Positions 40,840 through 45,784 of a DNA stretch of 64,000 nt are shown here, one piece after another. The notes beneath the pieces are model-generated. The model was not told the DNA's origin. It worked only from the letters and a program-made list of their open reading frames with translations, and searched no databases. The stretch is taken from contig NZ_VIRL01000008.1 in NCBI RefSeq assembly GCF_006874465.1, positions 62,001-126,000 of the forward strand, in the 5' to 3' direction. This DNA is from Microbispora bryophytorum. GTDB taxonomy: Bacteria > Actinomycetota > Actinomycetes > Streptosporangiales > Streptosporangiaceae. Position numbers and translations under genes: made by a program. Positions within the stretch are counted from its first letter, which is position 1; each line of letters begins with the position of its first letter.

Positions 40840-41339
40840 CCCCATCGCCGCGTAAAGTCCCTCTCCACGGTCCGGCGTCTTCCGCGTGTCGCGTTGCCCG
40901 CGCCGGCCCTCGGGCAGGCACATTGCGGAGCACGGGCACACCAGAGCCCGGCGCGCCACTCGAACCCGAGGGAGCAAGCAGGAATGAGACCCTCCCGCAG
41001 GTCCGGCCGGACGGCGTACGGCACGGTCACACCGCCGTGCGCCGCGCCCGTGCCGTACGGACGGGCGGTGGGCGCGCACCACCTGAGGAGACACGACCCT
41101 CGCTCTCGCCTTCCGGGCCGGATCGGCGGCGCGGCCGCCGCCTGCGCACTGCCGCTTCCGGACGACCGACAGGTTGCGGAAAGGTGAACACGAAAAATGT
41201 GACCGGGGTCACAACACCTGCCTCGCCCCCTGGCGAGGCGATGTTCGGACATGCCGGGTACGGTGCTGGAAGGCAACCGGTTCACGCGAGAGACTCAAGG
41301 GTCCGGGGGAAGACAGAGCACGACGACGAAGGGACTCGC
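40840..41339. other. 500-bp gap before sepH with hairpin
   Basis: gtacggcacgg (41016-41026) and ccgtgccgtac (41048-41058) form an exact 11-bp stem with a 21-base loop, possibly the terminator of the oxidase message. An ORF over 40984-41187 has a passable ribosome binding site, but Arg/Pro/Ala shadow-like composition, and I do not call it. The rest is the sepH upstream region, with the CRP-type site described separately. Confidence 0.45.
41198..41213 (+). promoter_or_regulatory. CRP-type site upstream of sepH
   Basis: TGTGA-CCGGGG-TCACA is an exact match to the CRP/FNR-family consensus TGTGA-N6-TCACA and a perfect 16-bp palindrome. It is centred about 134 bp before the sepH start codon in a 500-bp gene-free gap. 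Actinomycete Crp binds this form. Binding is inferred. Confidence 0.55.
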
Positions 41340-44021
41340 ATGCAGGAGCTCCGTCTCGTCGCGGTAAGTGAAGACGGAACGTACCTCGTCCTGGCGACAG
41401 CCGGGCGGGGCACGCGCTTCACGCTGCCCGTCGACGACCGGCTCCGCGCTGCGGTTCGCGGCAACTTCTCCCGTCTCGGCCAGTACGAGATCGAAGTGGA
41501 GAGCCCGTTGCGTCCCAAGGAGATCCAGGCGCGCATCCGTGCCGGCGAGACGGCGGAGGAGATCGCGGCCACCGCCGGTATTCCGGTGGAGAGAGTCCGT
41601 TGGTTCGAGGGACCGGTTCTCCAGGAGCGCGAGTACATGGCCCAGCAGGCCCAGCGGGTCGCGGTCCGGATGCCGGGCGAGACGACCCCCGGGCCCACGC
41701 TCGGCGAGCTGGTCGCCGAGCGGTTGACCCGGCGCGGCGTGCCCGCCGACGAGATCGACTGGGACTCCGCCAAGCGCGACGACAACCTGTGGCGGGTGCG
41801 GCTCGGCTTCGTCTGGAACGGTCACACCCGCCACGCCGAGTGGCTCTTCGACCCGCGCCGCCGCCACATCACCCCGAACGACGACGAGGCCATGCGCCTG
41901 TCGGCCGCCGAGTACGTCGAGCCCGAGCGGGACAACGCCACCGTGCGCCCCTTCATGCCCCGCCTCGCGTCCAAGCTCGCCCCGGTGCCGCCGCTGCCCG
42001 AGGTGACCTCTTCCCGCCGCGACGAGCCGGGTCTCGGCGTGCCTGCCATACGCTCCGAGCCCGCCGCGCTTCCCGAGCCCCTGCCGCCGCCTCGGCTGAG
42101 CCCGCCGCTGCGCGCGGAGACCGTACGGCACGAGCGGCCTGAGCCGTATGCCGACGAGCCGTCGGCGTACCGGCCCGAGCCGTACGCGGACGAGCCGGCG
42201 GCGTACCGGCCCGAACTGACCCCGGTGCCCTTCCGGCTGCCGCAGTCGCTCATCGCCGCGCACGATGCCGTGCTCCCGCCGCCCACCGCCGAACCCAGGG
42301 TGGAGCCCACCCCGCAGGCCGGATCCACCGCGCAGGCCGGATCCACCCCGCAGGCCGCTCCTTCGCGTACGCCCGCCGGCCCCGTCCCGGCCACCGACCC
42401 CGCCCCTGCCCCTGCCCCCGGCGGCGTTCCGGACGCTCCGGACTCGAACGCCGCCGGAGACGGCGCGGTCCGCGTGGGCGGTCGAGACGCCGCGGGACCG
42501 CAGGCCGCGTCCCGGCCGCCCGCGGATGCCGTCGCACCCGCGCCGGTTGCGGACACCGCCGCATCGGTCCCCGTGACCGACGGGAACAGCGCCACCTCGG
42601 TCCCCGTGACCGACGGGAACAGCGCCACCTCGGTCCCCGTGACCGACGGGAACAGCGCCACCTCGGTCCCCGTGACCGACGGGGACAGCGCCGTATCGGT
42701 CCCCGTGACGGGTGGGGACAGCGCCGCCGGTGAGACTGCGGTCGCCGAACCGGCGTCCCTCCCGCAGGAGCCCGCCGTCCCGGACGAGGCTCCCCACATC
42801 CCGACCGGCGTGACGCCGTCCAGTGGCGCGGCGGACACCCAGGAGGCCGTGCGCCCGGCGACGCCGCCCGCGGACCACGTGGCCGCCGAGGACTCGGCGC
42901 CCGCCGGCACCAGCACGCCCGCGGCCACCACGGCGATCACGAGCACCACGGCGACAGCCAGCACCACGTCGACTCCGGAATCCGCCGCGGGCTCCGGCCT
43001 GGACTCCCGTCCGGACTTCCGTCCGGACTCCACTGAGCACGCCACTGAGCAATCCACTGGGCAGCCCACTGCGCAATCCACTGAGCACTCCACTGGGCAG
43101 TCCACTCCGGACTCCGGGGCGACAGGCCCCGGGGTGACGGACGTCGTAGCCGCTGCCTCGTCCTCCCAGGACGCCGAGGGCTCCGTCCGCGAAAGCGCGG
43201 AGCCCCCCATGCAGGCCAGCGTGCAGGCTGCCGCAGCCACGGAGGCCGCGAGTCCGGCCGAGCCCTCGACCGCCGTGTCCGCGTCGCGGCCGGTCCAAAG
43301 CACGGTCACGGAAACGGCGGCGGACGCGGGCGCGGGCGCAGCCACGGACACGGACGCAGCCACGGGGGCGACAGCCGACCCGGCCGAGGGCGGCGCGGCG
43401 AACGAAGCGTCGCCGGCGGCCGCGGTTCCGGTCTCCGTTCCCGCGCCGGCTCCGCCGGTGGAGCCCACGAAGGAGCCCGCTCCGAGCCCTGCGGCCGACG
43501 CCACGGTGGTGAGTGTGCCCGCGCAGAGCGCGCCCTCGGAGGACACTGCGACGCCCACCTCAGCACCCACGGCTCCGAAGCCCATTCCCAAGCCCACTCC
43601 CAAGCCCGCTCCGAAGCCCAGCCCAGCGCCTGCCGCTCCTGCCGCACCGGCGACTCCGGCCGCGGCCCCGGCGGCACAGGCCACGCCACAGGGCCCCGCC
43701 GCGCAGCCCGCGGCCGAGGCCACTCCCGCGCCGCAGGCACCTGCACGGCAAGCACCCGCGGCCCAGGCTCCCGCAGCCCAGGCACCCGCGGCCGCCCCGG
43801 CGCCCCGGACAGGGGACGCCGGGAAGAACCAGCGCGCGGGCGACGGGTCCAAGGACGGGGCGAAGGAGGCGCAGAAGGAGGCTCCGAAGGACGCCAAGCC
43901 CGACACGCCCGCCCCGCCCGTGCCGAAGCCGGCTCCCCCGCGGCCCCGCAAGTCGCGCGGACGCCGGGCGTCGGTGCCGACCTGGGACGAGATCATGTTC
44001 GGCGCGCGCAAGCAGGATTGA
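41340..44021 (+). CDS. sepH: Septation protein SepH with a greatly enlarged disordered C-terminal region
   Basis: An 893-residue protein. Residues 1-~165 are the DUF3071 domain of SepH (MQELRLVAVSEDGTYLVLA, LRPKEIQARIRAGETAEEIA, the helix-turn-helix-like EEIAATAGIPVERVRWFEGP, DNLWRVRLGFVWNGHTRHAE). SepH stimulates FtsZ assembly and division in Streptomyces. The last residues, RGRRASVPTWDEIMFGARKQ, are the conserved SepH C-terminus. Between them lie ~700 residues of Ala/Pro/Thr/Ser sequence with YADEP repeats, five TDGNSATSVPV units, Ser-Thr-Gln-Glu repeats and Pro-Lys runs. Known SepH proteins are about 340 residues. ATG at 41340. A CRP-type site lies upstream. Confidence 0.9.
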   Translation: MQELRLVAVSEDGTYLVLATAGRGTRFTLPVDDRLRAAVRGNFSRLGQYEIEVESPLRPKEIQARIRAGETAEEIAATAGIPVERVRWFEGPVLQEREYMAQQAQRVAVRMPGETTPGPTLGELVAERLTRRGVPADEIDWDSAKRDDNLWRVRLGFVWNGHTRHAEWLFDPRRRHITPNDDEAMRLSAAEYVEPERDNATVRPFMPRLASKLAPVPPLPEVTSSRRDEPGLGVPAIRSEPAALPEPLPPPRLSPPLRAETVRHERPEPYADEPSAYRPEPYADEPAAYRPELTPVPFRLPQSLIAAHDAVLPPPTAEPRVEPTPQAGSTAQAGSTPQAAPSRTPAGPVPATDPAPAPAPGGVPDAPDSNAAGDGAVRVGGRDAAGPQAASRPPADAVAPAPVADTAASVPVTDGNSATSVPVTDGNSATSVPVTDGNSATSVPVTDGDSAVSVPVTGGDSAAGETAVAEPASLPQEPAVPDEAPHIPTGVTPSSGAADTQEAVRPATPPADHVAAEDSAPAGTSTPAATTAITSTTATASTTSTPESAAGSGLDSRPDFRPDSTEHATEQSTGQPTAQSTEHSTGQSTPDSGATGPGVTDVVAAASSSQDAEGSVRESAEPPMQASVQAAAATEAASPAEPSTAVSASRPVQSTVTETAADAGAGAATDTDAATGATADPAEGGAANEASPAAAVPVSVPAPAPPVEPTKEPAPSPAADATVVSVPAQSAPSEDTATPTSAPTAPKPIPKPTPKPAPKPSPAPAAPAAPATPAAAPAAQATPQGPAAQPAAEATPAPQAPARQAPAAQAPAAQAPAAAPAPRTGDAGKNQRAGDGSKDGAKEAQKEAPKDAKPDTPAPPVPKPAPPRPRKSRGRRASVPTWDEIMFGARKQD
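42564..42728 (+). repeat. Five 33-bp tandem repeats within sepH
   Basis: Units start at 42564, 42597, 42630, 42663 and 42696. The first three are nearly identical and the last two diverge. Each encodes SVPVTDGNSAT or a variant, at residues 409-463. DNA-level identity, not only protein similarity, indicates recent expansion by slippage or recombination. Confidence 0.9.
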
Positions 44022-44132: not shown

Positions 44133-44389
44133 CGCCGTCTGCCGGGCCGTGCCCCTCGGTCCCGAACACTCCGTTGCCCCAAGGACGCGTCCGGGACGCT
44201 TGTCGATTCGCGGCGTGACCAGACGCGCTCGTCCCGGCATCCCACGCGAGCAGGGCCGTACGGGACCGTCCGGAACAGTTCCGCACGATCATGAGCCTTG
44301 TCACGCGGCCCGTCGATCGAAGATCTTCCGTGGTGCACCCCCTCTCCCGGCACCCGGCCGGAGCTCGGGGGCTTCCCCGGAGGTTCTCC

Positions 44390-45784
44390 TTGCATCCACG
44401 ATCATGGTGGAAACGCGTTCGCGTGATCGCGGCGGCAGCTGTTGTTGCCGCCGGCACGCTGGTCGCGCTCCCCCAGGCGGCGCACGCGGCGGTCACGGGG
44501 CCACCGCCGCAGGCGTCCGCCTTCGATCACGTGCTCTACTGGAACACCGTCTTCCTCGACACCATCCGCACCCTTCCCCGCGACGGCGTCGACCCGCAGC
44601 ACAGCCACGACGGGGACCCGACCTTGCTCGCGCGGGCCGGCGCCATGCTGCACATCGCCGTCCACGACGCGAACTGGCCGGCCGCGCCGGTCACGTACCT
44701 GCCCAAGATCACGCAGCAGAACCCGAACGACTCGATAGAGGCCACGATGGACGCGGCGGCGCACCGCGTGCTCGAACACCTCTATCCCTACATCGACTTC
44801 GACGCGAACCTGGCCTACGCGCTCGCGCAGATCCCCTCGTCGGTGCCGTCCCGCTACGTCCAGGGCGGCCGGACCGACGGCGAGAGGATCGGCGACCTGA
44901 TGATCGCCGAAAGGTCGGGGGACGGGCCGGCGTTCGACCTCTCATACACAGAGGGGACGGTCCCCGGCGCGTGGCGGCAGACGGGCTCCGGACCGGCGGT
45001 GGCGCCGAACTGGTGGAAGCTCAAGCCGTTCGCCATGACGTCCCCCACGCAGTTCCGGCCGCCGCCGCCCGGCGGCTTCACCTCCTACGACCAACTCGTC
45101 CGCAGCTCCCAGTACGCCCAGCAGGTCAACGAGGTCAAGGCGTATGGCGGGGCGAAGAACCCGACCTCGCGGTCCGCCGACCAGACGCAGGCGGCGTTCT
45201 TCTGGGCCAACGACGGCAAGGGCACCTATCGGCCGGTGGGGCAGCTGTTCGCCATCACCCAGACGGTCGCCAGGCAGAGGGGGCTGAGGCAGAACGAGAC
45301 GGCCGAGTTGTTCAACCTCGTGTCCATGGCGCTGGCCGACGCGTCGATCATCGCCTGGGGAGCGAAGTTCGACACGCCGATCGACCTGTGGCGGCCGGAA
45401 AGCGCCATCAAGCTGGCCGACACGAGCCTCAATCCCGCCGTCACACCCGATTCCTCCTGGGAGCCGCTGTCGGTGAACGCCGCCGGGCAGCACTTTTCGC
45501 CGCCCTTCCCCTCGTACATATCGGGGCACGCCACGTTCGCGGGCGCATGGGCGGGCGTGATGCAGAGGTGGTTCGGGCACAACCTGACCTTCACCGCGCC
45601 CACCGACGATCCGAACGCCAACCCGAAGACCAGGACCTTCACGAGTTTCGAGCAGGCCGCCGAGGAGGACGCCCTCAGCCGGCTCTGGCTCGGCGTCCAC
45701 TACCGCTGGGACGCCGACCGCGGACTCGACGCGGGATTCAACCTGGGTGACTTCGTCTACGTGACCAAGCGCGACCAGGGATAG
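44390..45784 (+). CDS. Secreted vanadium-dependent haloperoxidase/phosphatase family protein
   Basis: A 464-residue protein. A TTG start at 44390 with GGAGG six bases upstream gives a classic signal peptide (RVIAAAAVVAAGTLVAL, cut after AHA). The C-terminal PAP2/haloperoxidase core contains vanadate-site residues: K326 and R335 (KFDTPIDLWRPESA), S378-G379-H380 (SYISGHATF), R431 and H437 (SRLWLGVHYRWD). Such enzymes oxidise halides with H2O2 or, without vanadate, act as phosphatases. A longer ATG start at 44291 would bury the signal. It is a lone gene; the halide and the role cannot be read from sequence. Confidence 0.87.
   Translation: MHPRSWWKRVRVIAAAAVVAAGTLVALPQAAHAAVTGPPPQASAFDHVLYWNTVFLDTIRTLPRDGVDPQHSHDGDPTLLARAGAMLHIAVHDANWPAAPVTYLPKITQQNPNDSIEATMDAAAHRVLEHLYPYIDFDANLAYALAQIPSSVPSRYVQGGRTDGERIGDLMIAERSGDGPAFDLSYTEGTVPGAWRQTGSGPAVAPNWWKLKPFAMTSPTQFRPPPPGGFTSYDQLVRSSQYAQQVNEVKAYGGAKNPTSRSADQTQAAFFWANDGKGTYRPVGQLFAITQTVARQRGLRQNETAELFNLVSMALADASIIAWGAKFDTPIDLWRPESAIKLADTSLNPAVTPDSSWEPLSVNAAGQHFSPPFPSYISGHATFAGAWAGVMQRWFGHNLTFTAPTDDPNANPKTRTFTSFEQAAEEDALSRLWLGVHYRWDADRGLDAGFNLGDFVYVTKRDQG

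Follow-up and report, generated by a model that had tools for sequence, protein, structure and literature searches.

A long-linker SepH in Microbispora bryophytorum represents the usual form of the protein in core Streptosporangiaceae

The window analyzed here, a 64,000-nucleotide stretch of Microbispora bryophytorum DNA, carries a gene whose product resembles the septation protein SepH at both ends but contains a very long, repetitive linker between them. This raises the question of whether such a linker is a peculiarity of this species with a role of its own at the septum, as an earlier note on this DNA proposed, or a property of the group to which the species belongs. The features of the locus are collected in Table 1.

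Table 1. Positions of the sepH gene, its conserved and repetitive segments, and the upstream palindrome in the window.
Feature	Position	Strand	Remarks
CRP-type palindrome TGTGACCGGGGTCACA	41198..41213	+	142 bp before the sepH start codon
sepH CDS, 893 aa + stop	41340..44021	+	ORF from ATG 41340 to stop
N-terminal domain, residues 1–220	41340..41999	+	DUF3071 (1–170) and conserved junction (about 201–220)
Linker, residues 222–858 (637 residues)	42003..43913	+	Fast-evolving, predicted disordered
36-bp tandem repeat, RPEPYADEPxAY unit, 2.2 copies	42135..42214	+	Tandem Repeats Finder
Conserved island AYRPELTPVPFRLPQSL, residues 288–304	42201..42251	+	Within the linker
18-bp repeat array	42307..42357		Tandem Repeats Finder
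33-bp (11-residue) tandem array, 5 units	42564..42728	+	First three units identical in DNA
Ser-Thr-Gln/Glu repeat, 12-bp unit (12/24/36-bp)	43029..43106	+	Tandem Repeats Finder
Pro-Lys repeat, 12-bp unit	43573..43620	+	Tandem Repeats Finder
AQAPA repeat, 15-bp unit	43752..43793	+	Tandem Repeats Finder
C-terminal block, residues about 857/859–893	43914..44018	+	Basic KSRGRR patch and ASVPTWDEIMFGARKQD

The N-terminal domain was matched to DUF3071 (Pfam PF11268) with E = 1.2e-60 and 204.9 bits, against a gathering cut-off of 26.9, and the junction follows the family consensus TVTPFVPR..AKLAPVPPL. Residues 1–220 share 96–99% identity with 11 Microbispora sequences, and Microbispora species are also the best-scoring named relatives. 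At the other end, the C-terminal motif of SepH is preceded by a basic patch (KSRGRRASVPTWDEIMFGARKQD); R876–P880 and W882–A889 are invariant in a 28-row alignment, and the motif is present in 76 of the 77 named full frames. Both ends are therefore intact, as had been claimed from the sequence (204.9 bits for the domain; a conserved block at about 857–893). The region without structure that is expected between them is predicted by a low-confidence AlphaFold2 model. A single match to the gene was found in the source genome, which is usual for SepH but not strictly defining. The sequence search revealed no solved structure related to the SepH domain; the sole match with E below 0.1, an azurin chain (E = 0.0035), was rejected, as it covers residues 784–843 of the low-complexity linker, outside the domain. 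We regard the gene as sepH, its product being a long-linker orthologue of the septation protein that binds FtsZ in actinobacteria.

Delimited by our own cuts, the linker has a high content of Ala, Pro, Thr, and Ser. The repeat families noticed earlier (11-residue, Ser-Thr-Gln, and Pro-Lys) were all recovered by Tandem Repeats Finder, which gave the largest array as 33 bp x 5.2 at 42553–42725. Its disorder, likewise proposed earlier, is borne out as a prediction: AlphaFold2 placed neither helix nor strand in residues 171–881, with pLDDT mostly below 50, in a model built from 28 aligned rows and of low confidence overall. Whether the C-terminal motif could dock on DUF3071 was examined in two such models, both with an all-coil linker and of low confidence (pTM 0.36 and 0.31). 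Two estimates of size had to be reduced. The supposed excess of about 700 residues amounts to 549 over the SepH of Streptomyces venezuelae (344 aa, PMC7968930), and the linker is about 1.9 times that whole protein, not about four times the usual protein.

The comparison with relatives was based on 80 named loci (the best 80 of 213), of which 77 contained full frames and 76 also the C-terminal motif; L079, L081, and L105 ran off their contigs, and L093 ended without the motif. The 76 proteins kept measured 433–1044 aa (median 701.5), and the same range was found for the 72 core Streptosporangiaceae that remain without four Actinomadura, 15 of them being longer than 893 aa. SepH was 625–912 aa long in ten named Microbispora, and the spacer, by the same cuts, ranged from 177 to 788 residues across the family. 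The earlier note had taken the length as exceptional and had itself regarded long linkers among the relatives as evidence against this; since 893 aa lies inside the ranges of both the genus and the named relatives, that evidence is now at hand. Long-linker SepH is the usual form in core Streptosporangiaceae, and the single gene studied here is ordinary for its family. The dropped locus L093 (6001–7836), from [Actinomadura] parvosata subsp. kistnae, contains a sepH frame that stops at 612 aa; probably the frame is broken within the linker, either in reality or through sequencing.

An assembly error or a wrong gene model might also inflate the length, given that repeats are a usual site of such errors and the source genome is a draft of 137 contigs. 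However, relatives in separate assemblies have a SepH of the same overall plan, terminal motif included, the largest repeat array spans 165 bp, and a genome of the same genus assembled in a single contig (G073) encodes a SepH of 744 aa (L194). This last value shows that the length class is no assembly artefact, the other objection that the earlier note had raised against itself, and we regard this explanation as highly improbable; the copy number of the 33-bp unit comes from one assembly.

To what extent long linkers occur elsewhere was seen in a class sample of 93 loci, of which 83 were kept; seven ran off their stretches (L125, L126, L129, L130, L131, L135, and L191), and three were without the C-terminal motif (L165, L174, and L177). 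In the Streptomyces-like family f17, SepH was 338–369 aa long in 13 of 13 genomes; the values were 261–375 aa in f6 (9 kept) and 372–393 aa in f18 (3 kept), and individual proteins measured 497 aa (f5) and 512 aa (f24). Beyond f1 and f16, one protein exceeded 550 aa (616 aa, f28). The family f16 is long throughout (L144–L154, 593–976 aa, all kept, from the 11 of its 14 genomes that were fetched), and f1 also includes shorter proteins: 426–461 aa in g61, g64, and g65, and 330–491 aa in the branches outside the core (g60, g8, g34, Actinomadura L107, and Bailinhaonella). A tree built from the N-terminal region of 75 sequences gave full support to each of the f1 and f16 groups but none to the backbone between groups; with a border at 550 aa, it requires at least eight changes of length. 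This suggests that SepH may have been lengthened separately in f1 and f16. Among 26 f1 genomes, SepH length followed genome size (rho 0.77, kinship ignored). The linkers of L144 and L147 in f16 contain 29 aromatic residues each, compared with 6 in the linker of the window.

The ends and the linker have evolved very differently. In blocks of 15 residues, mean conservation was 0.98–1.00 at residues 1–105, 0.02–0.49 at 226–855, and 0.88–0.96 at 871–893. Against 11 Microbispora sequences, dN/dS over aligned columns was 0.05–0.13 in the N-terminal domain, 0–0.02 at the C-terminus, and 0.56–0.74 in the linker, the last range being rough because the alignment is of low complexity; it contains many gaps among Microbispora. 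The 33-bp unit occurs in five copies in M. bryophytorum and as one degenerate copy in M. catharanthi (6/33 mismatches), with a possible single unit in M. rosea (8/33 mismatches); none was clear in the nine other Microbispora sequences of the 12 counted, where the best matches had 12–13 mismatches. The linker is different in each species, altered by repeats that keep the frame as well as by gaps and substitutions. Its length is highly variable, and the density of its weak negative charge changes little.

Two kinds of segment deserve separate mention. Ten of the 12 Microbispora sequences, that of the window included, have the island AYRPELTPVPFRLPQSL unaltered, and the remaining two differ from it at three positions. 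Planotetraspora and Sphaerimonospora have variants of it, and a simple motif search gave no match in the remaining genera. In this clade, the island marks one part of the linker as more than a spacer. In M. corallina (L042, 6001–8169) and M. oryzae (L052, 6001–7875), the middle of the linker consists of Ala-Arg-Glu repeats (AREAEAREAA), which replace the Pro/Ala/Thr/Ser sequence of other Microbispora, while both ends are nearly unaltered. Repeats of this kind form single charged helices, and these segments are likely to do so. A frameshift origin found no support in a comparison by eye: the other two frames did not resemble linkers of related species, and stops were present in three of the four alternative frames within the part inspected.

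The net charge of the linker was −0.073 per residue with an SD of 0.019 (73 core sequences, kinship ignored). Its positive fraction ranged over 0.034–0.158 and its negative fraction over 0.084–0.214, and the two covary (r = 0.66, 73 core sequences). An SD of 0.022 would be expected from sampling alone and 0.033 if the fractions were independent; the spread of charge is about what sampling alone predicts, and no narrower.

We propose that the linker is a flexible, sequence-tolerant tether between the two conserved ends. The published data on S. venezuelae SepH give this proposal its outline: the helix-turn-helix (HTH) of the N-terminal domain is needed for FtsZ binding, this domain elutes as a dimer, and both tetramer formation and efficient septal localization require the C-terminal half (PMC7968930). 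The tether would determine how far the C-terminal half can reach from the N-terminal dimer that binds FtsZ, and the 893 aa of M. bryophytorum with their repeats would be the present state of a drifting spacer, with no new function of this species. The fixed ends, the free sequence, the steady charge, and the exchange of coil for presumably helical repeats favor a spacer over a specific binding or condensate module, and on balance we regard the long linker as rather likely to be such a tether. A strong form of the claim is weakened by the same paper, in which the SepH C-terminus, ending in conserved motifs, is termed “largely dispensable” (PMC7968930). Our literature search yielded no experiments on any long-linker SepH.

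The earlier note proposed that the linker may alter FtsZ bundling or mediate condensate formation at the septum; in this reading, it would drive phase separation of SepH or cross-link FtsZ. Phase separation is commonly judged by sticker residues (aromatic residues and Arg) spaced through a disordered region, although other routes exist. Residues 303–858 contain one aromatic residue, 13 Arg, 11 Lys, and 61 Asp/Glu, and do not show such a spread of stickers, so that we found no positive evidence for condensates. The linker is indeed long, repetitive, and predicted to be disordered, and the published SepH is multivalent, forming tetramers (PMC7968930). However, the 33-bp repeat is not common to the genus, and two Microbispora bear a charged, helix-prone segment instead. 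As to bundling, S. venezuelae SepH gave occasional thin FtsZ bundles only, at a high ratio and considered artificial by the authors, and bundling of FtsZ by M. smegmatis SepH is given in a figure title (PMC7968930). Overall, a condensate or bundling module appears quite improbable.

A more serious competitor of the tether is neutral inflation, in which a nearly unselected linker changes size by slippage in G+C-rich DNA and only an open frame to the C-terminal motif matters. This is consistent with the dN/dS of the linker, with the failure of its repeats to recur throughout the genus, with a span of 625–912 aa within one genus, and with a variation in charge that does not exceed the sampling expectation. 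However, none of the 76 named relatives kept falls below 433 aa, while all 13 f17 proteins lie at 338–369 aa, and other proteins of the same genomes show no such growth. RNase E/G, DivIVA, and IF-2 frames were compared in 12 genomes (three proteins only; stop-to-stop frames, hence upper bounds), with five long-SepH genomes (G000, G073, G137, G216, and G219) set against three of f17. The RNase E frames measured 989–1011 residues in the former and 1160–1484 in the latter, and the DivIVA frames matching the first 50 profile positions 305–328 and 382–415, respectively (G216 and G137 have a further, higher-scoring DivIVA-like frame of 278 and 242); the IF-2 frames were slightly longer with long SepH (1047–1094 vs. 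1024–1060), by a few tens at most. None of the three proteins is expanded to a degree comparable to SepH. We consider neutral inflation possible, though somewhat unlikely.

A coupling of SepH to the tail of its partner FtsZ was also considered and rejected. Nine f1 genomes with long SepH (among them G077, whose SepH was measured in part) have an FtsZ of 369–391 residues from the GTGTG motif to the stop, and three f17 genomes have one of 292–300; the 360–436 residues found in short-SepH f1 genomes indicate that FtsZ does not track SepH length within f1. After exclusion of 4 of 30 genomes (G421 with N runs, G118 without the C-terminal peptide, and G431 and G077 with SepH unmeasured), the class as a whole showed a weak correlation (rho 0.47, p = 0.016, n = 26), and f1 taken separately showed no significant one (rho 0.28, p = 0.33, n = 14).

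A wider form of the tether reading would hold that linker length and charge density, not sequence, are under selection, with SepH-specific lengthening that occurred separately in Streptosporangiaceae and f16, a net charge near −0.07 per residue in Streptosporangiaceae, and helix-type swaps in some species. We put this forward as a speculative and rather doubtful extension; if it were true, SepH would act at the Z-ring as an adjustable molecular tether, with longer forms in large-genome actinomycetes.

The region upstream of sepH is conserved in its own way. The perfect palindrome TGTGACCGGGGTCACA occurs once in exact form in the window. Allowing one mismatch raises the count to two, where 0.57 would be expected, and 12 shuffles out of 100 attain as many, so the window alone proves little. 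Among the 80 named loci, TGTGA-N6-TCACA was found in 58 and GTGA-N6-TCAC in 62 within 300 bp upstream, all at −139 to −145, and nine of the remaining 18 have a two-mismatch palindrome at −140 to −144. It was present in five of 32 further loci, all f1, and in none of the 13 f17 or nine f6 loci. The whole genome contains 18 such sites, compared with one for a reversed control. From this conservation, control of sepH by a cAMP receptor protein appears possible in core Streptosporangiaceae. The leader and probable promoter at 41239–41339 (ATGTTCGGACATGCCGGGTACGGTGCTGG ... GACGAAGGGACTCGC-ATG) are, unlike the linker, strongly conserved in core Streptosporangiaceae, and GGACATGCCGGGTACGGTGCTGG also lies upstream in Actinomadura L109 and L110. 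A gene for D-arabinono-1,4-lactone oxidase precedes sepH in the window and was found in 75 of the 80 named loci, and the PAP2/vanadium-chloroperoxidase-like gene that follows it (44291–45784) was found in five, all Microbispora, some of the loci being incomplete.

In conclusion, the long linker is real but belongs to the family. The family pattern, with near-invariant ends, a variable spacer of steady charge density, and at least two families that have long forms, is modest and testable, and the natural length variants can be used to test the role of a disordered tether in an FtsZ regulator. Among the matches listed in our literature search, no title or abstract describes a long-linker SepH, and the main text of the principal SepH paper names neither Streptosporangiaceae nor Nonomuraea (PMC7968930).

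Compared with the best-described member, S. venezuelae SepH (vnz_27360), the protein of M. bryophytorum has the same plan, namely an N-terminal DUF3071 with an HTH, an unstructured C-terminal half, and a basic patch with a conserved 10-residue motif at the far C-terminus, but 893 aa in place of 344 (PMC7968930). The difference lies in the linker, which by the same cuts has 91 residues in the Streptomyces-like relative L113 (347 aa) and 637 in M. bryophytorum. M. smegmatis SepH (MSMEG_5685), of the same protein family, bound FtsZ and stimulated its polymerization (PMC7968930). The f6 relatives (261–375 aa, 9 kept), taken as Mycobacteriales because their best match is a Tsukamurella SepH, have the C-terminal motif as WEDVLLG, whereas M. 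bryophytorum has WDEIMFG. A similar arrangement is known from another divisome protein, FtsZ, whose C-terminal linker, disordered and variable, joins a conserved core to a C-terminal peptide that is likewise conserved; this is a different protein, and over the class the lengths of the two correlate loosely.
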